NCBI GenBank assembly: GCA_010093705.1
Contig: MU006091.1
Span: forward strand, 1,673,038 to 1,737,037
Length of the DNA stretch: 64,000 nt
Direction of reading: 5' to 3'
Origin: Patellaria atrata CBS 101060
Lineage: Eukaryota > Ascomycota > Dothideomycetes > Patellariales > Patellariaceae
In this document: one piece after another, positions 1-63,842 of the stretch
Position numbering within the stretch: the stretch's first letter is position 1
How the letters are laid out: each line of letters starts with the position of its first letter
Notes under the pieces: model-generated
What the model was told of the DNA's origin: nothing
The model's input: the letters and a program-made list of their open reading frames with translations, nothing else
Databases searched by the model: none
Translations under genes and position numbers: made by a program

Positions 1-504
1 TCCAATATACCCCCTACCCTAACATCTCTGTTCGATAGCCGCACCGGACAAGATTGATATATTCCAGACACGGGGATACCCCAAATTTCCGACTACAGCA
101 TTTCACTTCAATACATCTAGCATCAGTCCCTCCCGTCTTGACCAGTACATCTTGAACCTCTGACCGCGCCCCACCCCTCCCCCCCTCCAAAAAAAAATTT
201 TTTAAAAAAAAAAAACCCCCCAAAACGAACACAGGGCTTGCTAGACCCGGACATCCACAATGTGTCCCCCCCTAGAAGAGAGATAAGGGGGAAAATAGAG
301 GGGAAAGGAGGATGGTGAGAGAGTTGGAAACCTGGAAACTTGGGATTAGTACTGCTTGATCTGGCATTTGAGGTCGGTGTGGGACCCATGGTGTTGAGGT
401 TGTTGTTCACGGGGATAGGAAGGGTGAGGGTGCGGTGTTTGCCGGTTATTAAGGGAGTCGAAAGGATGGTAAATTTTCACAAAGGCTAAGTCATTCAGCC
501 GGGA

Positions 505-17825: not shown

Positions 17826-19940
17826 TCAGCGACGAGATTGCCACTTGCGACCCTGAGGAGCATGATAACCGAGGGTCTGTTCAAATCGCACGTAGGTTGG
17901 AGACGGCCTACGAGAAAATCTGCCATGGGATGGGTAGTGACCTGAATTGACATTGGAAAATTGGGACCTAAAGGAATGGGATGCAGAAACTGAAGCATGA
18001 TAACGACCTGTACCAATGGGACTAAGGTTATTAGGCGCATTTTGGTCCATGTCTCTCAAAGCTTGATGACGGAGAGCTTGCGGGGTGCCACGGTCGTACT
18101 GGTCATCGAAAGATCGGCGGGCTCGGTTTGCATTTCCGCCATGGAACAATCCTTTAGGACTGATTGTTAGAAGGAGGCGGAGCGACTTGCGGTGGAGGAT
18201 CTAAGACGGATGAGCTTACCAATGACTCGTGCATTCTCAATAGATCGTTGAAGCTTACTGTAGTTGTTTGGTGGTGGAAAGTCCTTCTCTTCACCTGGAA
18301 CTGCTGGGTAAGGATCGCCATGCACGTAAAAGAGCTGGTCGTGTTAGTCAACAACTCATCAAGTGAGAGAGAGAATAGTACCTTTGGACGATAATCCGGA
18401 TGTTCAAGTCGAACGCTCGAGTTGCGGAAGTGCTCAACAAGCACCTCTACACCTTGTTGAGTCGCGAATGCAAGAGCGACTTCCTTGCGAGACGTAGGGA
18501 ATCCAGGCCAGGATCTGCCATTGACACGACGGAAGAAATTGACAACCGCGTCGGGATCAACGAAGTTGACGAAGGCATAACCTACACCACGACCGGTGGA
18601 GTAATCAATGCGATTATAAAGGAAATCGAATTGTCCTCTGCTTCCATTGTCCATCCAGTTCTTGAATGTAGCCTTATCAACGTTAGTTGTCAAAGCACTG
18701 GAACTGCACGTGGAAGTACTCACAAAGTCCATTTCATTGGGAATATTCCGAATCATGACGGTGGTGCGAAACTCCTCAAAGCGCTCAATCTTCGCAATGT
18801 CAATCGTGGTATTGATGCCATTGCAGCGAGGACGCCTAGGACTGAAGGCGTTTGAGCGATGGCGGTTGTTCGACTGAGACACATGAAAAAAAGCGACATG
18901 GTATCCAGTCTACGGTATGTTAGTCTTCAATCATTCGGAAAGAGACATATGCGACCTTGCTTGCACTCACATTGTTGATCGAGATCCTTGCAGGAGCTGT
19001 ACCGTTCCAGTTCAAGATGGCCTGCATTTGAAAATAACTCTGGCAATTGAGATAAATCTGAAAGCAGCTATTGTCGTGTTCTATGACCCAATGATGACGG
19101 AAGTCGCCAAATTGCCTGAGGAAGTACATCAGATCGAAAAGCATTTCGATACCAACCGGATTGTGGTGTTCAGTGCCAAATTCTTTCGTGGCTCTGAACG
19201 TGAGCTGGGTGAGATCTGGATTAGTATCCAAGAGGTCATCAGGTGCGTACATCGCCATGTTGTTAATGACCCGGTTGGATTCACCATTGCTGATGAACAA
19301 TGCTCTAACTCCACCATTAACTAAGGGATGGTGAGTAGATAGAGCATGATAGGCCACCACGGCATCTTCCACATTCGGGAAGAAGAGATAGACGTAAGTG
19401 CCATCTGTACGAGAAAACATGATGTTGCACTCTACTTCGTCAACCTGCCAATATCATTAGTCTATTTCTTTGAGAGGCGGGGAACGAGTCAATGGGTTGT
19501 GGTTAGTAATCGAGGAATTGCGTAACAGAAGGACTTACACTTAGGATTTCACGAAGAGCGTAACCGCAAGCAATGTCAGCGTAGCGAAATCCTTTAAGGA
19601 CAATAGTGCGGGTTTGCTGTTGGTATGAGTTGAAGAAGGAAAGGGTTGACGAGGATGCTGTCGCAGATTCGGAAATTGGAAGTTCGAACTGGACGTCAGG
19701 CATAGAACCCTTGTTGAGATCCTTAATTGTAGGACTGTCGGCGACATCATCATCAGACCCAGCGGTTGCAGACTTCGTTGGGACTGTGGACTTGGCCGTT
19801 GGCGAGAACTCGATTGCATTCGGGGAAAGCCTGTAAGCAGTAGGCGAATACACAGTGTCGATTGTACCTTCCGGCGTAACTGGAGGAGACGAACGCTCGC
19901 TGACGCCGAAACGCAACGATTGCGGAGTTTCTTGGTTCAT
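17826..19940 (-). CDS. mei2: Mei2-like RNA-binding protein, three RRMs
   Basis: Six exons on the minus strand (19539-19940, 18971-19444, 18724-18909, 18382-18672, 18220-18334, 17826-18151) encode 597 residues. Residues 1-110 are Ser/Thr/Pro-rich with several SP/TP sites. RRM1 starts about 112 (TIVLKGF). RRM2 is near 215-290 (MLFDLMYFLRQFGDFRHHWV). The C-terminal Mei2-type RRM3 starts about 341 (TTVMIRNIPNEMDF, then DFLYNRIDYSTGRGVGYAFVNF, FRNSSVRLEHPDYRPKLF). A conserved tail PPPNNYSKLQRSIENARVIG follows. RRM3 is diagnostic: Mei2 in fission yeast binds meiRNA and switches cells into meiosis. Its role in filamentous ascomycetes is less clear. Introns are 47-94 nt. The one that interrupts RRM3 after NEMDF is supported by alignment to the family. 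Confidence 0.93.
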
Positions 19941-22186
19941 GATGAAGACTTGACGATGAAAAGAAGATGACAAAGGACAAAGATTGGAAGGGGAAATGAC
20001 AAAGTAGATGGTCAATGTCTGGAAGACGGCGAAGTGATATCAATTGATACACAAGAAAGATGCGATGCGGTAAATGGGTTGGTGAAGGAATGCCACAACA
20101 CCGAAAAGGTATTTCTCAGCGATGTTGCGTCGTGTGTGGATGGAAAGGAAAAGTGAGAAAAGATGGAGGGAAGAGTGAACTTATAAGTTCTTTCCGTGAG
20201 CAAGTTTTGAAGACAAGCGAGCGTCGAGGCCTTCCAGGTTCTTCCCCAAAGAACAAACGGATTGGACCCTTATGGATTTAAGGTTGAGCTGATTATTCGT
20301 CATCCTCAAGAACGGGAAAACTGTATAGAATACCTTACCGGGTAACCGTAATATATTAGACCGAGTACTTATCTTACCGGGAGAGGGAGGGCAAAGGATA
20401 TCGTCCCGGAGCTATGGACCTTCAGGAGGATAGGGCCGAAGGGTATTACTCCCCTTGAAAGATTCGAATACCCGCTTCGAGCTATTCTTACGGGGTCAGA
20501 ATGCATACTAACAGTCTAACTGCGCTTTGCTATACCCCTATAACCAAAGGAACATACCGTAAGAGGATATTGTAGAAGGGCGCTCAAGCTACCTTAGAGT
20601 ATTGAGCTTTCCAACTACCTTGGACTTCACAATGCTCTAGAGCAGTCAATACTCCCTTTATTAAGATTCGCTCAAAGTACGGAGATGTAACTTGTTATTT
20701 TCGAAAAATTTGAACCACATATTAGGACCCTTCTTGAGTTGTGGTCTAGCTATTCTTCAAGATGTCTTCATTTCAACTACTTCCGCTCGGTAGGGGCGCA
20801 ACCTTTCGCGGCGTCAAAGCGGCAGCTCGCCCAAATCTATGGGCATTCTTAACTCAACAATCAGTCAAGAGTTGCATCATAATACCCCTTTTCTCAGACA
20901 GTCTCAAGCAATTACGAAGTTATTCATCAATCTAAAACAATTAGATCCTATTAAATAGGGGTACAGATCTAAACACACAGTACTAAGGGTAACCTGAGCG
21001 ACCGGACTTACCTTGATCTCCCTACCCTGGGCTGTCGCTAAGGTAGGGTAATTTTACATGAGCGTATCTGTCCACGGCATACTGTGTCCTCGACGTCATC
21101 GTAGTCTTCAGTTTCCTGCTTGATATGCGTAATATACACGAAGAAGCTGTTTAGGTTTTCCTGAGCATTTGCCTTACCTTACGGTCATGTCACCGTCTCA
21201 TCTCAGCTGGGCTCGCTGTAATGTTTGTGGGACTCTCGGTTTTCAGACAGAGAAGGGCTCTTATGAGGGATCTTAGCAAATCTTCAGCATCCTACCACCA
21301 AATGGTTTTTCCTGATCTACCCACGCATAAAGCCACTCCAAAGCGGCGTATTCGAATATACTTGAATTCATCTGCGGGGGTTTATGGTCACGCGAATACT
21401 ACATATTCATTGGTAGAATACTTGTCCCTTGATGGGAAAATCAGTGGTGTGAACCTCCTCAAGAGGGTGCTTAGAGGTGCTTCAAGTGGGCTGTATCTAG
21501 GTGCCGACGCCCTTCGAGACTTTTACCCGTCCACGGAGTCCTACAATGGCAAGTTTGGGAGACATAACTTTTTCAAAGCGCGAGATTGTTTCAGGGGTAA
21601 AATGAGGTCACAAATGAGAATATAGATATTCAAATGCGACATAAATATTGTTCCCTATCTTATGCAATATGAAATGCGATAAAGCTAAAGACCAGTTCAG
21701 AACCTGAAGTGTACATGAGGATCAGCTAGAATATTGTCCTTTTGGAAGGAGCACCTTGAACTGGGACGACGTTAGAATAAGGAAAGCACGGGGCTTGGAT
21801 GGTCGTCCGTTCCTGCAGTTTTGGGCCGCACCAGCATCCTTTTAAGCTTAGCCGAAAGCTGTCTCCGCTCGAACCCTGTCGGCCTTGTAAGCGTCGCTCG
21901 ATCAAGATTTCATTAGAATTGTCTATCGTTGTTTTTTACTGCTGATAATGATATCTGGTCTTGATGCAATGTGAGAGTTGTTGAATTAACCTTCAGAGCT
22001 TGCGAGGATATCTGATACAGTAATCTCGACCCGCCCCAAGACAATAGTTCTCCCAATTTCTTCCTCACAATCTCACTCGATAAAGACATCACAAATATCA
22101 TCAGAAAGTCAGAAACAGTTCACGAGAGTTCATCATAATCTCCCAAACTATCCTGATCGAGCGAGTTCCCTACGAGACGAGCCACA
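19941..22186. other. intergenic between divergent mei2-like and SEC15 genes
   Basis: This 2.2-kb divergent promoter region is mostly featureless. A plus-strand ATG-started frame at 21221-21625 encodes 134 residues with a basic N-terminal half (TPKRRIRIYLNSS). It matches nothing I know. It is listed separately at low confidence. Confidence 0.5.
21221..21625 (+). CDS. possible hypothetical protein, 134 aa
   Basis: This uninterrupted ATG-started frame is longer than most in the surrounding spacer. The product is basic (HKATPKRRIRIYLNSSAG), with GLYLGADALRDFYPSTESYNGKFGR-like composition in its second half. There is no signal peptide, membrane helix or known motif. It could be chance or a decayed gene. 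Confidence 0.22.
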   Translation: MFVGLSVFRQRRALMRDLSKSSASYHQMVFPDLPTHKATPKRRIRIYLNSSAGVYGHANTTYSLVEYLSLDGKISGVNLLKRVLRGASSGLYLGADALRDFYPSTESYNGKFGRHNFFKARDCFRGKMRSQMRI

Positions 22187-35858: not shown

Positions 35859-37068
35859 GTTGTATGCGTATAGATGATTGAGTTGTAGATGAATCGAATA
35901 GAAGATGATCGAGTAGAGGACGTTAGAGTCGAATATGCTCCAATAGAACTTGATTAGGTTGAAGGTGGATGAGGTAGAAGAAGCGTGAGTTGAAGAAGCG
36001 TCAGTTAGAAAAGTGTGACTTGTAGAAGTGTTACTGGAAGAAGGGTGGAAAGATACGGTAAGTAAAGAACGAAGCTTTGAGGTGACGTCGTCTGGGTTAC
36101 TGACAATAGGGTTTCTGAAGTTAAGAAATAAAGTCAAGGTCTTATGGCAGATATATCAGAGTGGTTGCAGTGCCGAGCGAACGGTGACTATAAACAGATC
36201 GTTCAGTGAAGACCAAATGAAGTTAGAACCAGTCAAGTAGTCAGATAGACCAATTACAGGAAAACGAATTCAAACGCCCAAATCATAAAATCCGATTATG
36301 ATTAAGACATTGATGTTTGATTAGTTTTTCAGAGAGTCATACATCTATTAAAAGGCATGACCACATATCAGAGCGAACGTGATAGTCCTATCTCCTGCTA
36401 GGTCACACCTGGTACTGTACTCCTCGATTGATAGCAAGGGAAAGGATAATGCGAAGTCAATAATTATGAGAAGATGAGCACAACAATGATAGGATTTCAT
36501 CACCACAAAACCTTTTAGGTTATCGTTCTGAAAACAAAGATTCCGCACCAAAGTGCTACTACAGTATAATAACTCGATTGAAGAGAAACACTTGGGACTT
36601 TCCTGCGACTATCATTTGATATTTACACGGAGCTACCTGATAGTACTCGAGTACTTGTCCCTTCTGGTCCATACCAAAAATGATCCTACCCGTATCTCTG
36701 TTTTGTAGCCAAATAGCGATCCACTATTCGGAGGAGAATCCAGACAAGGTATTCAAACTTCGAAATACACATCCAATAGGTGTGACGGGTTTGGTAACTT
36801 AATCCTCGAAGACTTGAACCATCGGTTCGAGGTTACCTCAGATTGCGCTGCGTGCAACGATCTTGGCCATATCCTTCAACCTAGGGCCTGAATGGAGACG
36901 GGTTGCTACGTTACGCCAACGAGGAGTACTGCAATTTCAGCTGTGACTTTTGCGAGGCCGAGTACATTGCCCCTAAAGTCTTACCTAATTGAACTCGTGC
37001 TTTTCAGCGTCGAGAGTGTATGATTTTCTAACTGAGCTTTGAATGCATTATCAGTAGTGGACTATGAA
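35859..37068. other. intergenic, no gene seen
   Basis: This includes the promoter side of the kinase gene, where a Ser/Thr-rich frame remains open without an ATG, and the 3' flank of the dehydratase gene. No other feature is visible. Confidence 0.5.
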
Positions 37069-38306
37069 TTACTTCTCACCGCTGGTTCCAGTTATTGCGG
37101 TGGCTTTGACAGCAATACCACCTGCAGGAGTTTGAGCCCAGAGCTCATATTTCTCCGGTGAAAGCTCCTTGCCGCAAAGTGTGAGGGGTTCATCTACGTA
37201 GAGCGGTGCAAGATTCCGGTATTGGATCTGTAGGATGTGCTGTTCCTTTCTGTTTCCAGGGTTTACGACGCATTTAAGATGGTTTTCGAGTAGTAGGCTC
37301 AGGAGCGTGAATGTCAGGGGGCCATGGACCAGTAGGTTGCGGTGACCTTCGATTTTGCGGCAGTATTCTGGGTCAAGGTGGATTGAGTGCGCGTTGAAGG
37401 TTAAAGCACTATATCTGAAGAGTAGTGAAGGAGTTGGTGTAATTGTATAGAAGAAGTCGGGTTTGTGTGGTGCTATTTGCAATACGTATTAGTGAGGTGC
37501 CAGACCCGTGGCATCTTTATAGATTCATAACGGAAAGTGTCTAACGTACGCTTCAATATTTTGTCATTGATCTGGACTGCCAATGCTGCTGCAGTTTCTG
37601 GACTCCTTTCTGTCATAAATACAATGTTCCTTCGTTCGATGATTCTTGCTCCATTAAAGGAGTCTTCATGGGCAGCCCAGAGTAAGTTGCGCTGGTCCCC
37701 GTCCGTAATACTGAAATCTAACTTGACTGGGGCTATTCGCCGCTCGATACCTACAAAGATCTTCTCATCTCCTATAAGTCCTTTGATCTGTATATCCCGA
37801 ATACTCTCCATACAAACCCACCGTCGGGCCTGGACCATTGGATGGAGGTCGAATCTGAACGTAGGATTTATCTTATAATACCCGCCTGCCCACATTCTTC
37901 TCACAAACGGAGGCCCAGGCGATTGTAAAGGATCAGTGCCATCAGGTAACAACCTGTCTGCTGATATAGCGGGATTGAAGTAAACGAGATGGGAACCAGT
38001 CGGTAGAGGAAAGGATGCATTCCGCGGGGGAAGCTCTTTCCATTGAGGAAACCATGCTTCGGGAACGAATGATTTCAATGTTCTTGAGAGACGATATACG
38101 TTATCGGGGATTAGGTTATCGTAAATAAGTGGTAAGGTTCGACGGGGCATAGACTTGATCAAGTGGTCCAAAGTTGAGGCATCGCGTCGAGGTAGGGGGT
38201 AAGTGTAGCTAGTTGGTATAGCGAATCGCTTTCGGTATAGGTATCGCGAGGAACTACAAATTAAGAAACCATCTAGACAAACTATATTTGGTGGTTTGAC
38301 ACTCAT
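37069..38306 (-). CDS. HTD2: HTD2-like mitochondrial 3-hydroxyacyl-thioester dehydratase
   Basis: Two exons on the minus strand (37550-38306, 37069-37472) encode 386 residues. The N-terminus is Arg-rich and nearly free of acidic residues (RYLYRKRFAIPTSYTYPLPRR), consistent with mitochondrial import. The C-terminal half carries the hot-dog dehydratase signature: RYSALTFNAHSIHLDPEYCRKIEGHRNLLVHGPL, here cited in pieces as RYSALTFNAHSIH and LLVHGPLTFTLL. By family, it dehydrates 3-hydroxyacyl-ACP in mitochondrial type II fatty-acid synthesis. Several fungal relatives act on C4-dicarboxyl-CoA thioesters instead, so the substrate is uncertain. The GTACGT-CAAATAG intron rejoins ILK to PPHKPDF. Confidence 0.85.
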
Positions 38307-48950: not shown

Positions 48951-51900
48951 TTACTTGAAAAACCTACTCGAAAACTTACTCACTCTCTTCCCCGCGCTCC
49001 CCAATATATCATCAAACGTCTGCGGCCCCTGTCCGGTTGGAGCGGGCTGGCTCTGCGCACTTCCGGCTGGGGCACCTCCACCCTGTTGATTCACATTCCA
49101 CGAGTTTGATGGGCTCGGACTTTGCGTGAATCCCGGCGCATATTGACTCTGTGATGGTCTGGGACTTCCTCCCGGGGGTGTGCCGTACGGGGGATTCGGA
49201 TACCCATGCGGTGGTTGCTTATACTGTTGTGATTGCCGCTGTGGTTGGGACTGGAGGGTGCTGGTCGATTGGTTGAGTGTGCTCGGATATGAACCATACC
49301 CGCTATCAACATAGGATCCAGCTCCTGAGCTGTGAGGTTGTGAAAATGGTGGGCTGACTTGGGTCATTGGCGCCCTTGGTGGATACCCAGCCCCTGGTGT
49401 TGGTCCTTCCATTGGCACCGATCCTATATAGGTTTCGGAATGATATCTTCGAGGGTCGGGAGGATGTTGACTACCTATACTATTATTGGACAGGTGTGAA
49501 GTCAGCGGTGGACGGGCCCCTGGAGAGCCGTAGCTGGAGTCCCGTCCACTTGGACGATAACTAGTAGGAACAACACTTGAGCCGATTGAGATGGATGAAT
49601 CGGTACCCCGGTTTGGCACTACTGCGGAAACAGGACTGTTTGAGGAGCCCAGTTCGTATACCGGGCCGCTGTTCTGGCGTTGGGGTGTCCCGATTGCTTT
49701 ACGGCGGATACTGTTAGACGTTGATGCCATTGGCTGTGCCTGGGTTTGAGCGTAAACATTATGATTATGAGGTTGAGCTTGCGATTTTGGAGGGGATTTC
49801 TTTGCGATGCTGAGACTTGGCGGGTAGGGAGAAGTCTCGGCTGGAAGCTGGTATGGTCTTTGATCCTGACCATAGCCAACATTATATGGTTGATAAGAAT
49901 CTCTCTGAGGCGGGCCGTTTGAATAGTGCGATGATGTTGCTTGTTGGTGTTGATACTGATCTTGAGGAGGCCGCTGGTGTGGTGAATAATTGAGCCCTTG
50001 GGGCGGATACTGGCCTTCTGATAGAGGAGCTAGATGTCCTCCCGTCGTCGTGAATTGAGAACCGTAGGCGCTTTGTCCAGGTAGCGGAGGATGAACCTGT
50101 GTACCTTGCGGCCGCCTTACCGATTTCCGGACTGATCGGAACCGTGATATGGTAGGATTCCGTTTCACCTTTGCCATAGCCTCATCGAGCAACTTTAGGA
50201 TCTTTGCTTCATCGGTTGAATCTTCAGTGATCTGAAGGCTCACTACACTTGCGCCTTCATCGACTGTGGCATTGTCACCCTCATCCTCATCTTCGTATTC
50301 TTCCTCGTCATCTTCCTCATCATCATCATCTTCGTCCCCATCGTCTTCAAATTCATCATCGCTATTAGCTTCCTCTTCCTCATTGTGTTCGCGTTTCAGA
50401 GCGTCCAGAGCTGACCCAAGCACCGGATCTCGAGCTTGAACATTAGCCCCATTCTTCAACAATGTTTCGACAACTGACGTTTGGTGATAATAAACGGCCT
50501 GGATAAGTGCTTCATCCAGCATCCTGTCAGAGGGGTTCTTATCCAGCAGGAGGGAGACAGTCTTCGAACATCCCTCGCGAGAAGCTGCGGTTAATGCATG
50601 CCCGTACAAACCACCAGTTACATGTATGTTCGCACCATGTTCTAGTAAGCTGGCGACAATTTCTACACGATCCATGTACGCCGCAGCTTGTAGAGCGGTG
50701 CCGTACTTCCCGGATACTTCGTTGACGTCCAAGTCTTTCTCGAGTAAATAGTCAACAAATTCTTTTGAAGCCTTCAGTGCCGCCGCTTGAAGGCAGTTAC
50801 CATACTTCCCACCTGATCTCTTGAAGTCGACTTCGTATTCGTCAACGAACTTTTTGAATATCTCAAAATTATTGCCATAGGATGCAGCTTGAGCGACAGT
50901 TCCGAAGAGGCCCCCTTCTAGATGTGGATCTGCGTCGTGTAGGAGTAAGAGGTCCACACATTGGTCATTATCATACCGGCAAGCTGCTGCTTGTAAAGCT
51001 GTATGATACAGTCCTCCGACTTGGTCAACGTCGACGTCCCTCTCCAGGAGATCCTCAATAACGGCGTAATTGCCTGCATAGGATGCCGCTTGCAAGGCAG
51101 TACCATATTCCCCACCTACTTCATGGATGTTAGCATCGGCTGAAATAAGAGCGAAATAGCAAGCATAGTCTCCTGAAAGTGCAGCAGCCTGTAACGCATT
51201 GCCATATTTTCCACCGCTGAGATTGACATCAGCCTGATGAGCGAGCAGAACATTGACGCAATCAACATCAGTAGCGAAGGCTGCGGCTTGTAATGCGGTA
51301 CTCCATGGGCCACATTGCTGATTTACATCTGCGCCGTGTTCCAGCAACTGTTTACACATGTCCTCCTCCCCCTCTGAAGCAGCAGCATGGAGAGCAGCAC
51401 CGTACATTTCACTGATCGCGTGGATATTTGCTCCTCGCTGTAGTAGGTACTCCACGCCGTCTATGTCTCCCGTGGATGCGGTAGCAATAAGAGCAGTATT
51501 TCCATCCTTATCGGTGCCCTCTATATCAGCGTCGTGATCCAACAGTAACTGGAGCGATTCTTTAGGAAGACCAAATCCAGTTAATACCAGTGGTGGTGAG
51601 TTACTTTCGCCCCCTTTTACGTTAGCGTTAGCGCCTTGTTTGAGCAGTACTTCCAGCGTCTCGTGATCCTGTTCGTCTGCAGCCGCAATAATCGGGTAGC
51701 CATACTCTCCTCCGCGAATGTTCGGGTCCGCTCCACGCATCAAAAGAAGTTTAACAACATCGGTATTTCCAGTGTAACTTGCAGCCTGCAGAGCGCTTCC
51801 ATATTTTCCGTTTGGATCCTGGTTAACTTCAGCACCGTGGTCCAGAAGCATCGTCACGATCCCTAGATCACTATTCAGAGCAGCGGCCTGAAGAGCGTTT

Positions 51901-54900
51901 CCGTAATCACCACCTTGCTTATTAGGATCCGCTCCTTTATCCAGCAGAATTTTGACGATCCCTTCACTTCCGTCGTATGCAGCTGCTGTGAGAGCGGTAC
52001 CGTATCTATAAAAAAAATCAGTAACTCACTAAGGAAATAAGCATTAAAGATGGATATAACGCACTCTTTGCCTTCGGCATTTGGATCCGCACCGAATCCA
52101 ACCAGTAGAGCAACAGTAGATTCATTCTCATGATCAGATGCATCATACAACGATTTGTCAAGCATCTCTTGGTTGGTCCCTCGCTTCTGCAATAGTTCAA
52201 GACATTCATCTCGTCCATAGGATGCCGCAAGGAAAAACGCATTCTGATGACGGATGGTACCGGAATGGTCAAGCAGTTTTTGGACAATATCAACATTGCC
52301 ATTTTTCGACGCAATTGCAAGAGCTTGCTCCATGGATGGGTTGTCTGGATTTTTTTCTAGTAAAGCATGGACACAATCGGTGTGTCCATATGTTGCAGCT
52401 GCAGTGACAGCGCTTCCGTAAGTGTTGATCTTACGGTTAACATTCCACCCTTTCTCTAGCAGCAAACGTACCACGCCATCATGACCACTTCGCGCAGCAG
52501 CTCCAAGTGCGCTACCGTACCGATACTCTTCGTCCGGATCTACATCTGCTCCCTTATCGAGCAACATCTCGCACGTCTCTCGATGGCCGAAGTACGCTGC
52601 AACGTTGATTGGTCTCAAATGTGTTCCACCAGTGATGTTGACATCCGCACCGTTGTCCAGTAGTATCTTAACTACATCTTTTCTGCCGTACTCCGCTGCA
52701 ATATAAAGTGGAGTTCCGAACATCTCGTCTTTACCGTTCACGGTGGCTCCTTTTTCAATCATGTATTGAACCAGTGTAACATGACCTTCGGAAGCAGCAT
52801 TCCACAGAGCGGTTTTCCCTCCGTCTCGTCGTTGAGCATTAATTTCCGCGCCACCCTTGAGAAGACGGTCGATCAAAGAGATATCACCTTTTCGACAGGC
52901 CCAATATAGTGGTTGGTAACCCCATAGATCCATTTCATGGAGCTCATCTTCATGATAGTTGTCAAGCAAGTAATCCAGAAGCGCAGCATAGCCGGTAAAC
53001 GCAGCAACATGAACCGGAGTAAACTTTTCAGAGCCCGCAACGTCTTGTGTTTCTGCATAGCTCTTCCACCATATTTCCCTACTAGGTGACTCCTTGTACC
53101 AGAATGGGTCGCTGAGGTCAAGCTCTTGAACGAGATCAGGTGGCGCCTCCATAGCATGTTGAATCCAAAAGTTTCCAGGATAGGTGAGCATTCGGGTTGG
53201 GGTATCTTCAATTTCGTTTTCTGCATCGTAATCCACAGCCTCTTCTTCTCCTGCGTTGGTCTCAATATCCTGTGTATCCGCTCCTTCGGTGGCATCATTT
53301 TCGACGCCTTCATCTTGTACTTGCTGATTATCATCCTGATCATACTCGAATCCTTTATCCTCATCGCCGCTATTCTTTTCAACATGATCACTCGACGAAA
53401 CCGGCTTTCGACCCACTTGTAGAGAAGCGGGAAGCGCATTGTTGGTCTCAATATCCGATAAAGCTGCATCACCCTGAACTTTCTCAGTGTTCGTGTTGTT
53501 ATTGCGATTCTCATCATTCTCTTCCGAATTTGTATCATCTACACCGTCCTCTTCCTCATGCTCAATCTCTGCTTCTTCAGCTGCTGGCACTTCAGCCAAA
53601 GTAGTCTTGCGCACATAATCGAGGCAACGAAGGGCAATGATCCCATGCTGCAGGTCGACGGGCTCTAGAGATAGCTGGTCTTTGGCATATCGTTCCAGAT
53701 GCTCTTTCGCTGCTTTGTCGATCCACTCGACCGTCTCATCATCGTATTCGTTTATTGTAATGAAACCTCCACAGCTTTGCACATGCCGCTTGAGAGCTTC
53801 CGCGTCATTACGCTCATATTCTGGTAGATCCGCTATAACAGCAAGGTCGTATATTGTGGGCGCTACTGCAGCGATGATGAGGCATCGAAAGATCTCTTTA
53901 GTATACTCTATTCCATAATTTGTCGGATTGAGTACCTGGTTAAAGAGTCAGTTTGGATCTTATGCGGGATTGTATTTAGATTCTCTAAGCGCGCTTACTC
54001 TGCGACGAATGTGCTCGAAGATTTCCGTCAATCCGTAAGGGAAAGCTTCTAAAAACTTTCTTATCGTCGAATTATCCACCTGAGCAGGATCGAGATTCTT
54101 TAATTCTTGAATCACCAGACTGACATATATGTAATTACTTTGCGCTTTTCCGTAGATATGTCGTTTAATGAAGTAGGCAAGTCCGGAATTGTACCCCTTT
54201 AACACCGCAAGTCTGTCAACCTCGTAGGAGATCTGGGCTTTAACACCGTCATTGATAAAACTGATGTTCTCTTTATCTTCCATATCTATCACCAATGCGC
54301 CTTTCAACGCTTTTTCGATATCTGGTCGGCCCGACCTACTTAATAGAGTCCATTTGACCGGGGTATCCTCAGAGTTATCAGCGTCCTCGGAATTAACCTC
54401 ATCTAGGTCTACAACTTTGTCCTTTTCCTCTGGTTCTGAGGCTATAAGATACAACTGAAGTAACCCTAGAAACTCGGTTAAAGATTCAGTATCCATTTCA
54501 TCCAACCCGTTGATAATAAAATGAACGGTGCCAACGCTGGAGTTCCGCAGAATATTCTGCATGTGATTCCACATAACAGACGCGGCGGCTACTTCAAATG
54601 TGATCTCAGAGTTGTCCCCCTTTTTACCCTTGGTCTGATCACTGAGGAGATATTCCGTCAGGTCTGGCTTCTTCTCTATCATTTGCCGTACTAGAACCTT
54701 GAAAACATCGAGAGAGCTTCTTCGATTAGGATCCTTTTCGTCGCAAAAGAAGTAGGCTGTAAAGACAGTCAGACTCTCGTCTTTGCTAGTTTCAGATTTC
54801 AAATCTTGAATAATCGAAGAGGCTATGACAGCTTGACCTTGACCGGCGGAACCATGAATCCAGAGCACCTGAGACTTCTCACTCTTTTTCCATTCGACGT

Positions 54901-56259
54901 ATTGATCATTACTCGTAATCCAAGCGCCTTGGTTTGCAGGTCGACCTTTTACGCTTGCTTCCATGTCTTTTGCCGGATCCGTTACCATCAGAGCGCGGAG
55001 AATTGCAATCCAAGCCCCGTCATCTACCAATGCTTGACGCTTTGCATTCTGGCGGCCCTTGATGATACCACGAGACTTCTGCACCATGGTGCTTATCTCC
55101 CCTGAGACCGCCACGTACCGTCCGTCTTTAGGCCCTTCGAATTTATTGAGTTGAAAATGGTCAGAAGCTAGGGAACTTTTGTTGTATCCTAGGATAGTTG
55201 CTGAGTCTTCTTCCACAACATGTTCCTGTGCAAACACTTGTTAGGAAATTGTTCGCACTCGAAGTGAGGAGTAATATGAATACCATATGTTTCAAACCGG
55301 ATCTGCCCAGTATGGTATGCTTGAGCAATAAGGCCGCTGTATCACTTTCATACTGTTCCCAAAAGCAGAACAAGCCGATCTTGGCATCTCTTGCAACGGA
55401 GACAAATTGCTCGAGTAAATCTTTAAGGAACTCATTTCCGGCCTCCAGAATTTTCATTAGGCCAGAATTGATACCTAGACCTACAGCGCTTGCTAGTTCA
55501 GCGAACATTGATGCTTTTGCTTGAGACTTCGTGCCCCTGAATGGAGTTCCTAGGAAAACGCATCCAACTATAGAGCTAAAGATGTTGGGATAGTAATTCT
55601 GATGTAGTTTCGCGGCCAGAACTGCCTAAGCTTCAATTTCAGAGGGATGTTTATCATTGAATTACCTGTTACTGACCCTTTCTGTGATAATACCGCCTAG
55701 ACAGTGGCAAACAAAGACGATTGGTCGAGTTGATCCCCTCTGTGGATTCCATTAGTATATGATCTTGTTGGGGGATGTTATTTAAGGACTGGGAACATCA
55801 TACTGGTCTATTATAAACGAGAGCTTGCATCAACTGATTGGCAACATTCTCGAGTTTATTGTCAATGGCACCTTTTCCGAACCATTGGCTAGTATACTCG
55901 AAAACCATGATTCTGCAACTGGGAATCTTGCTATAGAGCATGTTTGCATCGGCCAGCCAATCTGTTTTCTCCTTTCTCCACGTATAGATTGGGTTTGCGC
56001 CCAGTCCAGGGACAGCGACGATACTGAGGGATGTTAGCTGTTACCCTACCCACCCCAGGACCTTGGTGACATACTCGACAGAGATTTCATGATTGCTTGA
56101 CTTTCCCGCTTCATTGGGATTAGGGATAACTTTGAGACCTTGATTAATTTGCTGTGCGGCGTCATTATCAAGACGGAAAACACGTCTTTGAGATGTTTCT
56201 CTTACAGTTTGATCTAGTTTCGAGTGCTTCGGCTTAGGATCACGGGTAACCGTTGCCAT
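48951..56259 (-). CDS. large hydrolase-like/NACHT/ankyrin STAND protein
   Basis: Seven exons on the minus strand (56075-56259, 55804-56023, 55677-55739, 55284-55625, 53999-55225, 52065-53935, 48951-52005) give 2,320 residues. The order is: an alpha/beta-hydrolase-like N-domain (VDIVAVPGLGANPIYTW, FVCHCLGG); a NACHT-type NTPase with VLWIHGSAGQGQA as Walker A and HFIINGLDEMD as Walker B; an acidic linker; about 27 ankyrin repeats (NALQAAA and TALQAAS cores); a highly acidic Asp/Glu run; a short basic segment; and a long Gln/Pro/Ser-rich tail. This is the architecture of fungal NLR-like proteins linked to non-self recognition. The usual P-loop GxGK[S/T] reads GQGQA, lacking the Lys. The nucleophile-elbow Ser is Cys. 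The donor of exon 3 (GTCAGT) and the exon 4/5 join are the least certain splices. Confidence 0.85.
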
Positions 56260-59935: not shown

Positions 59936-60579
59936 AGGATGCAGTTTGAAACTGCGAACATCATCTGTAATTATACAACCGTGTTTGGAGAATTGGTGCA
60001 GCCGGAACCAGCGTATTGTGTAGATACCCAGGACGCTTGAGTGGTACTGTATTTCGTAAAGTTAAGCCATTCTATGATCGCAATAGGAGTTGTCTGTCAA
60101 ATTCATGGAAGGGTTCTGGAGAGCAGGTGTGCTTGCACTCTGTTTATCCTGACGGAGCATTGATCTCTTTCATTCACCTGTGTCCAGATGATGAACGGCG
60201 TGTACAGTACTTATGATCGGATATGATTGCTCCTTGCGAGTTGCCAAATATCAAATATCACCATCTACTCTCTTACTTGCAGTGCTGTATATCGATTGCG
60301 ACCGCCTTCAACAACACTCTCGTATTTTTCATACAAGCTTCCACGCGTAATGAAGTAGCTCTAGAGTGTTGTAAAGAAGCTTGAATGATGCTGATGTGGT
60401 TGTATGCGCCAAGCAATAGAGATCAAGACCTATCTGGTACTATAATTAGAACTAGCCGACCCACACAATAAATGCCAAAGGGAAAAATCATATCCGGAAA
60501 TCGGCCCTCTGTTACCTCATTGTTGTGGTAATTCTTACTTATCTATTATATGTCTATTCACGGGCCGGCGAATAAACAA
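59936..60579. other. intergenic upstream of tRNA-Thr
   Basis: This holds the 3' flank of FLX1 and the 5' flank of the tRNA gene. The A-rich stretch immediately before the tRNA (AATAAACAA) is typical of Pol III start regions. Confidence 0.5.
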
Positions 60580-60602
60580 GCCTTCATAGCTCAGTTGGTA
60601 GA

Positions 60603-60660
60603 GTAATTACTCCCCCTTCTTCACCTTTTCGGCTTGAAATCAGCCCACTAACATTGTCAG
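60603..60660 (+). other. spliceosomal-type intron inside the tRNA D-arm
   Basis: The 58-nt insertion starts GTAATT, has a pyrimidine-rich stretch (CTCCCCCTTCTTC), a CTAAC branch motif at 60648-60652 and ends TTGTCAG. Branch-to-AG distance and total length match mRNA introns elsewhere in this window. Its removal joins tRNA position 23 to 24 and restores G10-C25. Because a G is present at both edges, the boundary is ambiguous by one base, and one of the two choices gives exact GT-AG ends. Confidence 0.75.
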
Positions 60661-60674
60661 GCGTTTCACTAGTA

Positions 60675-60695
60675 AAGATCAGGAAATACACTGGT
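60675..60695 (+). other. canonical tRNA anticodon-loop intron
   Basis: Twenty-one bases separate A37 from A38, the site cut by the eukaryotic tRNA splicing endonuclease. The intron contains ACT (60690-60692), which can pair with the AGT anticodon, as expected for the conserved anticodon-intron pairing. Confidence 0.8.
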
Positions 60696-60737
60696 ATGAA
60701 AAGGTCATCAGTTCGATTCTGATTGAAGGCATATCTA

Positions 60738-60754
60738 TTTTTTTGTTTTTTTTT
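60738..60754 (+). terminator. Pol III poly-T terminator
   Basis: Seven T residues, one G and nine more T residues begin seven bases after the tRNA 3' end. This is a strong RNA polymerase III stop signal, and it argues that the gene is transcribed as a tRNA. Confidence 0.85.
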
Positions 60755-61134: not shown

Positions 61135-61977
61135 ATGTCAAAAGATCATCAGGGGCTCGAGAAGGTCCGTGCATCCAAATTTCAGTATCAAGAACACCAC
61201 CCCCTTGTCCCACCACCATCAGATTCTGAGCCTGTCTCACGACGACAGCGACGAAAAGGAAAGCGAAGTCCATCCCCACTGTTGATTCCACAAAGCTCAG
61301 AGAATCCCAATCTATCAAATTCAGCTCATCCCTTATCCCCGGTCCAGTATCTACAAGTACTGACACACGATGCTCTCTCTATCCCATCTTCTCTCCCATT
61401 AACGATAATGCCCCCAACATCCTCGATCCCTCTCCTCATCGCCTCCATTGGCAACCCTGGCCCCGCCTATGCCGACACGCTGCACTCCGCTGGCCACACT
61501 GCACTTGACGCTCTGCGTGTCCTTCTCAACTACCCATCCTTTTCCAAATCTCGTGCTCTCGGTAGTCTAGTCTCCCTCCCGCCGTCCCCCGACCTACCAT
61601 GGACGCTCTACCAATCTCCAACCCTAATGAACGTGTCCGGTCCCGCCATTTCCTCTGTATGGCGCGCTTGGCCGTACTCTGGAGTGGGAGCCGGAGGCGT
61701 GTTGGTTATCGTGCACGACGAGTTGGAAAAGGGGTTGGGGAGCGTGAATGTGAAGAGGAGCGGGAGTCCGAGAGGCCATAATGGGCTCAAAAGTATTATC
61801 AAGTCCCTACCCGGGGTCGACTTTGTGAGAGTTGGAGTGGGGATCGGTAGGCCTGAGAGTAGGGAGCCGGGAGTAGTTTCGAACTATGTGCTCAGCAAGA
61901 TGAACGGGAGAGAGAGGAAAGTCGTGGAGGATTCCGCGTGGGGGATTCTGAAGGCACTTCAGGAGATCAGGGGTTAG
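61135..61977 (+). CDS. PTH1: peptidyl-tRNA hydrolase (Pth1 family)
   Basis: This is a single exon of 280 residues. The enzyme core starts near residue 97: ASIGNPGPAYADTLHSAG carries Asn107 and catalytic His117; LMNVSG, VIVHDELEKGLG with the active-site Asp, and SPRGHNGLKSI follow. Family knowledge: it cleaves peptidyl-tRNA that drops off ribosomes, often in mitochondria. The first ~90 residues are an extra Ser/Pro-rich extension with a basic patch (SRRQRRKGKR). An internal ATG (61408, MPPTSSIPLL) lies exactly where bacterial-type enzymes begin, so the true start could be either; the long form may add targeting information. It lies 400 bp downstream of the unusual tRNA gene. Confidence 0.88.
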   Translation: MSKDHQGLEKVRASKFQYQEHHPLVPPPSDSEPVSRRQRRKGKRSPSPLLIPQSSENPNLSNSAHPLSPVQYLQVLTHDALSIPSSLPLTIMPPTSSIPLLIASIGNPGPAYADTLHSAGHTALDALRVLLNYPSFSKSRALGSLVSLPPSPDLPWTLYQSPTLMNVSGPAISSVWRAWPYSGVGAGGVLVIVHDELEKGLGSVNVKRSGSPRGHNGLKSIIKSLPGVDFVRVGVGIGRPESREPGVVSNYVLSKMNGRERKVVEDSAWGILKALQEIRG

Positions 61978-62639: not shown

Positions 62640-63842
62640 TCAATCACTATCATCATCGCTTCCATATCCAACCAAGGGCCCTGAAGGTTTCTGGACTGGC
62701 TGTGACGTTGAGAATTTCACTGGCGTTCCCAACATCTGGTTCTTCAGAGTTGCTAGAACGGAACCTGACAATATGCCACCATTTTCTATTGCCTGAGGCT
62801 CCTTGATTTCATACTCTCTCCCAGCATTGCTCTCCTCAATCATCAATAACTGCTCATCAGTGAGTGCTTCACCATCCCCATGCTCTAACGCAGCCTTTTC
62901 TTTGGCATACCAAACATCATCCGAAGCTTCGTAGCCTTGCAATCCAAAACTACCTTCGATCTTCCGCCGCTTCTTCTGTTCGGGGTCTCGTCCTTCAATC
63001 TCAGCGACGTAGTCTGCGGGTAGTGCTCTTCTTATGGCTTCAGCGGCCTGCTCTTCTATCTTTCTCGCCTCTCTCTTTTGCGCCTGCGGGTTTGGATCTA
63101 CTGTCGCCCATCGCACATTAAGGACTTCATTATGATCTAGCGCTTGATGGGCCATGGCCTCTTTCGCAAACTGTGAATTCGCTTCGTTGGTGTAGGTTAC
63201 GAATGCAACACCACGTGCATTCAGAACGCGTATACGGTCTACTTGGCCCCATTCTTGAAAATGGCGGGCGACGATTTCTTCGATATCGTCAGTTACATGG
63301 ATACGACCTACGTATAGCGTGCGATTTTGTCTCATAAAGCTGCCCACACCTCCCATATCATCCCGGTAGTCGCTGTGCTTGTCGCGCCCGAAGCAGTCGA
63401 CGTTCGGATTGTATAGATCATGAAGGCCTGGTAGCCTGTGCAGATATTCGCATTCCTGACCCTTGGGACATAAGCCCCGCGCGAAGAACAGACAAAAGTA
63501 GCTTCCGGGTACACGGTCTGCACGGGTGTAACCGCTGTCGCGAGCAATGTTACAGCGTGAGGGAGCCGCAGTTTTTGAAATGTATTTGTCTTCACGATCG
63601 CCGCCCGACCATTTGTTATACCAGATATTGAAGATGGTACCAGTTTGTGGCGGAGGTTCGGATTTGAAAGTACTGGGATCGACTTGAGGACGAGCCGGGC
63701 GCCTCTTTTTGCGGATGATCTTCTTAACTTTCTTCTCTGGGTTGGTGGTTGTAAGAGCGGTTGATGGAGGTGGTGAAGCGGTTTCAGGGAGCGGAGATGT
63801 CGTTGATGTGGGAAGTACGGGAACTGCCTCTACTTCAGCCAT
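62640..63842 (-). CDS. CWC2: pre-mRNA-splicing factor Cwc2
   Basis: This is a single exon of 400 residues on the minus strand. After a basic N-terminus (KKIIRKKRRPARPQ) comes the Torus/zinc-finger region with WYNKWSGGDRED and a CCCH finger (Cys117, Cys125, Cys131, His135; CLFFARGLC, CEYLHRLP). An RRM follows at about 174-247 (RTLYVGRIHV, RGVAFVTY). A helical and acidic tail ends in GYGSDDDSD. Cwc2/RBM22 belongs to the NineTeen complex, contacts U6 and the intron, and helps shape the spliceosome active site. Motif content and order match the family fully. The start ATG lies in the sequence GCCATGATGG read on the plus strand. Confidence 0.95.
   Translation of the reverse strand: MAEVEAVPVLPTSTTSPLPETASPPPSTALTTTNPEKKVKKIIRKKRRPARPQVDPSTFKSEPPPQTGTIFNIWYNKWSGGDREDKYISKTAAPSRCNIARDSGYTRADRVPGSYFCLFFARGLCPKGQECEYLHRLPGLHDLYNPNVDCFGRDKHSDYRDDMGGVGSFMRQNRTLYVGRIHVTDDIEEIVARHFQEWGQVDRIRVLNARGVAFVTYTNEANSQFAKEAMAHQALDHNEVLNVRWATVDPNPQAQKREARKIEEQAAEAIRRALPADYVAEIEGRDPEQKKRRKIEGSFGLQGYEASDDVWYAKEKAALEHGDGEALTDEQLLMIEESNAGREYEIKEPQAIENGGILSGSVLATLKNQMLGTPVKFSTSQPVQKPSGPLVGYGSDDDSD

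Follow-up and report, generated by a model that had tools for sequence, protein, structure and literature searches.

A candidate spliceosomal intron in the D-arm of a tRNA-Thr(AGU) gene of the fungus Patellaria atrata

The tRNA-Thr(AGU) gene and its surroundings

The window analyzed here is a 64,000-nt stretch of contig MU006091.1 of Patellaria atrata CBS 101060 (assembly GCA_010093705.1), to which all positions refer. Positions 60580-60731 (+) comprise a tRNA gene (Table 1) that matches the Rfam tRNA model RF00005 end to end, with 42.4 bits and an E-value of 1.1e-6, in a search of the last 6 kb of the window with permissive filters (gathering score 29). The same locus was not found by the Rfam search of the whole window, either with the gathering filters or at E-values up to 1, and ARAGORN, run on the whole window, made no call at 60580-60731. 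With long introns allowed, ARAGORN placed a tRNA-Cys(ACA) with an intron of 74 nt at the locus; once 58 nt were deleted from the D-arm, it read a tRNA-Thr(AGT) whose 21-nt intron sits at 37/38. The former model, with its single large intron in the anticodon loop, was rejected because it requires a poor anticodon arm, as opposed to the perfect one of tRNA-Thr. The Rfam match and the ARAGORN call obtained after the deletion thus agree with an earlier sequence-only reading, which had placed a complete tRNA-Thr(AGU) at these coordinates.

Removal of both inserts leaves a 73-nt tRNA in which all 21 of 21 stem pairs are Watson-Crick and all 19 of 19 conserved positions checked are present; with the structure intact in this way, a decayed tRNA pseudogene was rejected as an explanation of the locus. 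By eye, ACTGG of the 21-nt intron and CTAGT around the anticodon can form five pairs, one of them G-U.

Table 1. Features of the tRNA-Thr(AGU) locus, with positions in the 64,000-nt window
Feature	Position	Strand	Basis
TATTATATG, TATA-like, 28-36 bp 5' of the tRNA gene	60544..60552	+	sequence; role inferred
tRNA-Thr exon 1 (positions 1-23), holding the complete A box	60580..60602	+	Rfam, ARAGORN, sequence
58-nt D-arm insert, between positions 23 and 24	60603..60660	+	deletion enumeration, motif scoring
tRNA-Thr exon 2 (positions 24-37), anticodon AGT	60661..60674	+	ARAGORN, sequence
Canonical 21-nt tRNA intron, 37/38	60675..60695	+	ARAGORN after 58-nt deletion, BHB-like check
tRNA-Thr exon 3 (positions 38-73), with B box GTTCGATTC	60696..60731	+	ARAGORN, sequence
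T runs (T7, T9), probably the Pol III terminator	60738..60754	+	sequence

The boundaries of the 58-nt insert were approached by enumerating the D-arm deletions that leave a legal tRNA geometry. Among the enumerated deletions, of which the best 25 were listed in rank order, only the removal of 58 nt yields nine of nine Watson-Crick pairs in the D and anticodon stems, and it does so in two registers with an identical product, 60603-60660 (GT...AG) and 60604-60661 (TA...GG). When G-T pairs are allowed, four further deletions reach nine of nine, three of them of 58 nt (starting at 60602, 60605 and 60606) and one of 56 nt. Because the enumeration scored tRNA pairs, the boundaries are set by the tRNA rather than by a search for GT-AG ends; because they slide by one base, the GT-AG register is one of two equally good ones. 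The length of 58 nt and the location between positions 23 and 24 are as described in the sequence-only reading. Its statement that excision restores the D-stem stands in that a fully Watson-Crick D-stem is regained, but not in the sense that the stem was abolished, since GAGT in the interrupted gene gives four pairs with one G-U. Excision of the 58 nt also repairs the junction of the D-stem with the anticodon stem. A perfect 12-bp palindrome, GAGTAATTACTC (60601-60612), spans the 5' junction of the insert, and a target-site duplication was rejected, given that the edges of 60603-60660 share, by eye, just one base.

Both internal promoter elements are complete, the A box TAGCTCAGTTGG at 60587-60598 and the B box GTTCGATTC, and the locus is the sole site in the window that fits the box patterns used at an A-to-B spacing of 31-259 and forms 10 or more of the 12 acceptor and T-stem pairs. 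Together with the T7 and T9 runs just downstream, the boxes are as intact as had been claimed. The longest T run within the insert is 4, so that premature termination by Pol III would not be expected.

Downstream of the tRNA gene lies a peptidyl-tRNA hydrolase gene (61135-61977, +) and, beyond it, a gene for a Torus/RRM protein (62640-63842, -), both recognized by their Pfam domains. The Torus/RRM protein resembles the spliceosome component Cwc2, and the location of these two genes beside the tRNA gene is probably a coincidence. With the Cwc2-like protein as the query, 10 stretches in viral contigs matched the peptide pattern and 0 were confirmed. Elsewhere in the window, an RRM_2 (Mei2-like) protein gene (18154-20015, -) contains candidate introns 61 and 94 nt long, and a large ankyrin-repeat gene (48951-55237, -; Pfam domains on 48951-51857), the upstream part of which we take to resemble a NACHT-type NTPase, has candidate introns that measure 59 and 63 nt. 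A match to the C/D snoRNA sn668 at 91-158 (-) is below threshold (26.6 bits, gathering score 40, E-value 0.31).

Splice-site motifs of the insert and of introns in the window

The insert starts with the donor GTAATT and includes a pyrimidine tract, a branch-site-like motif, ACTAAC (60647-60652), and a CAG acceptor. The 5' GTAATT, the CTAAC, the terminal CAG and the pyrimidine tract (19 pyrimidines in the best 20 nt) are all found as the sequence-only reading listed them, with one correction: CTAAC, said to lie eight bases before the CAG, in fact stops 8 nt short of the insert's 3' boundary and 5 nt short of the CAG. In the register 60603-60660, the insert thus combines GT...AG ends with a branch motif at the proper distance from the CAG, as in U2-type introns. 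ACTAAC agrees with the fungal branch consensus RCTRAC, and its distance of 8 nt from the end falls inside the branch-to-acceptor range of 6-36 nt which, like a CAG, is usual in the introns of fungi, U3 introns among them (PMC5832005).

GT...AG ends are found in 494 of the 127,884 58-mers on the two strands of the window (0.39%). On a motif score that uses fungal splice-site weights, the insert obtains 8.1, a value reached by one 58-mer out of 127,884, namely the insert itself; with these weights, the chance of such a score in any of the five 58-nt registers is about 4e-5, to be read as an order of magnitude. A 20-nt tract with 19 pyrimidines is matched by 0.8% of 42,628 58-mers.

For comparison, we assembled 12 candidate introns of coding genes in the window whose removal joins open frames. 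These were kept from 19 candidates, and the seven that were dropped (19k alt, Sec15 c, 58k, 22k, 11k, 42k and 24k) were alternatives or were less convincing by eye. Protein evidence served to find or check three of the 12, namely the introns of the eRF1 and Hsh49/SF3B4-like genes and the first intron of Sec15, with Pfam support from the eRF1, RRM and Sec15 domains in the host genes; across these junctions the proteins are presumably continuous. An initial intron caller was discarded: at score 10 it could not tell GT-AG ends (31) from five decoy pairs of ends (23-27).

The 12 introns are 48-94 nt long with a median of 57, and the insert, at 58 nt, has a length typical of mRNA introns in this window, in accord with the sequence-only reading. 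Their scores, from a set chosen partly on motifs, range from 6.0 to 10.2, five below and seven above that of the insert. The acceptor is CAG in 4/12 and TAG in 8/12. The branch motif ends 9-25 nt before the intron end, which puts the 8 nt of the insert one base outside, and the best 20-nt stretch has at most 16 pyrimidines in all 12, as against 19 in the insert. At donor position +5, 11/12 have G and the insert has T; this proportion may overstate the donor consensus because four of the seven dropped candidates have a base other than G at +5 (GTAAAT, GTGAAT, GTGTTT and GTTACG). GTAATT itself recurs as the donor of two low-confidence candidate introns, 36973-37072 (-) and 51066-51168 (+). The donor, weak for this genome, is the main misfit of the insert. 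Among GT donors of fungal U3 introns, 88/136 match GTRWGT, and three of the six positions are described as absolutely conserved (PMC5832005); the G at +5 may be one of these.

The possibility that the insert is a copy of an intron in the window (an introner) was rejected, as non-self blastn matches extend over only 10-16 nt with E-values of at least 0.99. An assembly or sequencing artefact would be very improbable, given that the tRNA features checked are intact and the intron signals are coherent. Taken as a sequence type, spliced or unspliced, the 58-nt insert is very probably of the intron kind.

Predicted folds and competing explanations

When both inserts are removed, the cloverleaf is the lowest-energy fold. 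With the 58 nt alone removed, the best predicted fold has the D-stem without the whole cloverleaf, and for the unspliced RNA the best predicted fold is at -40.6 kcal/mol as against -8.9 for the cloverleaf. In this unspliced fold, GAGTAATTACTC forms a small hairpin, which could hide the donor and hinder U1 or, alternatively, could hold exon 1 back from premature formation of the D-stem. A pairing between ACCTTTTC of the insert and GAAAAGGT, a stretch of the anticodon arm and variable loop, was dismissed as chance because 17% of 1000 shuffled inserts have an equally long pairing run with the gene's 3' portion.

The predicted misfolding of the unspliced RNA and the weak GTAATT donor both count in favor of the main rival explanation, in which an intron-like insert recently hit a redundant copy of tRNA-Thr(AGU) and is not productively spliced, so that the copy is now silent or gives dead RNA; the source would perhaps be a reverse-spliced or transposed mRNA intron. 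Short insertions in the D- or T-arms of eukaryotic tRNA genes, described by Yoshihisa in 2014 as lying mostly in one of many synonymous copies and as supposed pseudogenes (PMC4090602), point in the same direction. No decay is apparent in the features checked, that is, the 21/21 stem pairs, the 19/19 conserved positions, the canonical intron, the boxes and the terminator, an observation with which a recent insertion is equally compatible. We consider such a freshly interrupted, unspliced copy unlikely, albeit the strongest of the competitors.

Excision by the tRNA endonuclease offers another route, under which the 58 nt would be a non-canonical tRNA intron recognized through a bulge-helix-bulge (BHB), as in red algae, nucleomorphs and archaea. 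When flexible bulges are permitted, the GT-AG register scores 9.0, a value that 1.4% of 12,700 background positions attain and that comes close to the 9.5 of the canonical 21-nt intron, so that this test gives no clean separation; the classic 3+3 bulges also accommodate a central helix of 4 bp, two of them G-U. However, a check by hand shows that under the classic geometry neither flanking helix forms its first pair, and the flexible version depends on G-U-rich pairs that involve the D-loop and are absent from the predicted best fold. A BHB origin would, furthermore, leave the GT, the ACTAAC, the pyrimidine tract and the CAG unexplained. The structure for the tRNA endonuclease is thus marginal, and we regard this explanation as weak and highly improbable rather than dead.

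Group I introns follow a U at the 5' site and have G as the last intron base. None of the five 58-nt registers that give nine stem pairs (starts 60602-60606) combines these two features, and the Rfam searches of the whole window and of the last 6 kb returned no group I match, although a form this small could escape such scans. Fungal rRNA forms of 56-81 nt, a range that includes 58 nt, are described in PMC3160393; a tiny degenerate group I intron is nevertheless the least credible of the explanations considered and appears barely conceivable.

The reading we prefer is that the 58-nt insert is a spliceosomal intron that is probably spliced from the transcript of a Pol III tRNA gene. Under this reading, drawn from the anatomy of the sequence, the tRNA-Thr(AGU) gene would carry two introns, a short one of the U2 type at 23/24 and an ordinary tRNA intron at 37/38. 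With both boxes and the terminator intact and no run of more than 4 T in the insert, Pol III would be expected to transcribe through both. The spliceosome would then take out the 58-nt intron in the nucleus, which would let the D-arm fold natively; removal of the 21-nt intron by the tRNA endonuclease and ligase would follow. That the spliceosome acts first is suggested by the preference of the unspliced RNA for misfolded structures. Transcription, splicing, the order of the steps and the use of the tRNA are all inferred.

Related systems and significance

Introns of the mRNA type occur in fungal rRNA genes, and one such intron was reportedly found in a fungal 18S rDNA in 1993; the host in these cases is a structural RNA, as it is here, but an rRNA rather than a tRNA. 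Splicing mutants of fission yeast are said to be impaired in U6 splicing. As of 2017, no small structured RNAs other than U3 and U6 were known to have frequent intron interruptions (PMC5832005); the sequence-only reading, too, states that U6 genes of some fungi carry mRNA-type introns. The U6 introns are a close parallel in that an mRNA-type intron resides in a small structured RNA gene (PMC5832005), one that is transcribed by Pol III; U6, however, is itself a part of the spliceosome, whereas the host here is a tRNA gene with an additional intron of the endonuclease type. Introns are present in 138/310 fungal U3 genes and, like the insert, are short, have GT-AG ends, RCTRAC and CAG, and lie in the 5' half of the RNA (133/138 U3 introns; PMC5832005). 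In contrast, about two thirds of the U3 donors conform to GTRWGT, which GTAATT does not, and the host RNA differs.

Among tRNAs, those of Cyanidioschyzon merolae and of nucleomorphs similarly have D-arm introns next to others, the tRNA-Ile(UAU) of C. merolae containing three, in the D-, anticodon and T-arms (PMC4090602). The determinants in C. merolae seem to be BHB motifs, whereas the insert described here has spliceosomal signals, and the non-canonical tRNA introns of Guillardia theta measure 3-24 nt as against 58 nt here (PMC4090602). The accessible text of this review of non-canonical tRNA introns in eukaryotes mentions no spliceosomal case, and the accessible portions of PMC4494063, PMC3978253, PMC8393795 and PMC11782384 likewise have no mention of a spliceosomal intron in a nuclear tRNA; unclassified tRNA introns of fungal mitochondria are mentioned in PMC8393795. 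Our literature search, with most subscription papers and bioRxiv preprints outside its scope, produced no report of a nuclear tRNA case, in line with the view of the sequence-only reading that none is settled.

Five pattern scans for relatives in viral and prokaryotic collections, three of them in viral contigs and two in genome contigs, with the fungal distribution outside their scope, gave no relevant match; two of the five returned a single match each. One match, in a Tannerella MAG (L001, 2425-2590, -), is by eye an apparent broken copy of tRNA-Gly that adjoins an intact tRNA-Gly, and another, in a viral contig, falls where ARAGORN calls a tRNA-Pro; both were set aside as not relevant.

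The introns of tRNAs and those of mRNAs are regarded as separate worlds served by separate enzymes. If the preferred reading is true, the spliceosome can accept a pre-tRNA made by Pol III, a single tRNA requires two unrelated cutting machines, and tRNA joins the short list of structured RNAs with spliceosomal introns, so far U6, U3 and rRNA. The finding would also bear on intron gain, via insertion into a non-coding gene transcribed by Pol III, and would mean that similar genes escape annotation pipelines; being missed or miscalled by tRNA finders, further such genes would stay hidden. More generally, we lean, by a narrow margin, toward the view that nuclear tRNA genes of some fungi hold spliceosomal introns, such that a Pol III pre-tRNA would need the spliceosome along with the tRNA endonuclease and the supply of this tRNA would be tied to pre-mRNA splicing capacity.
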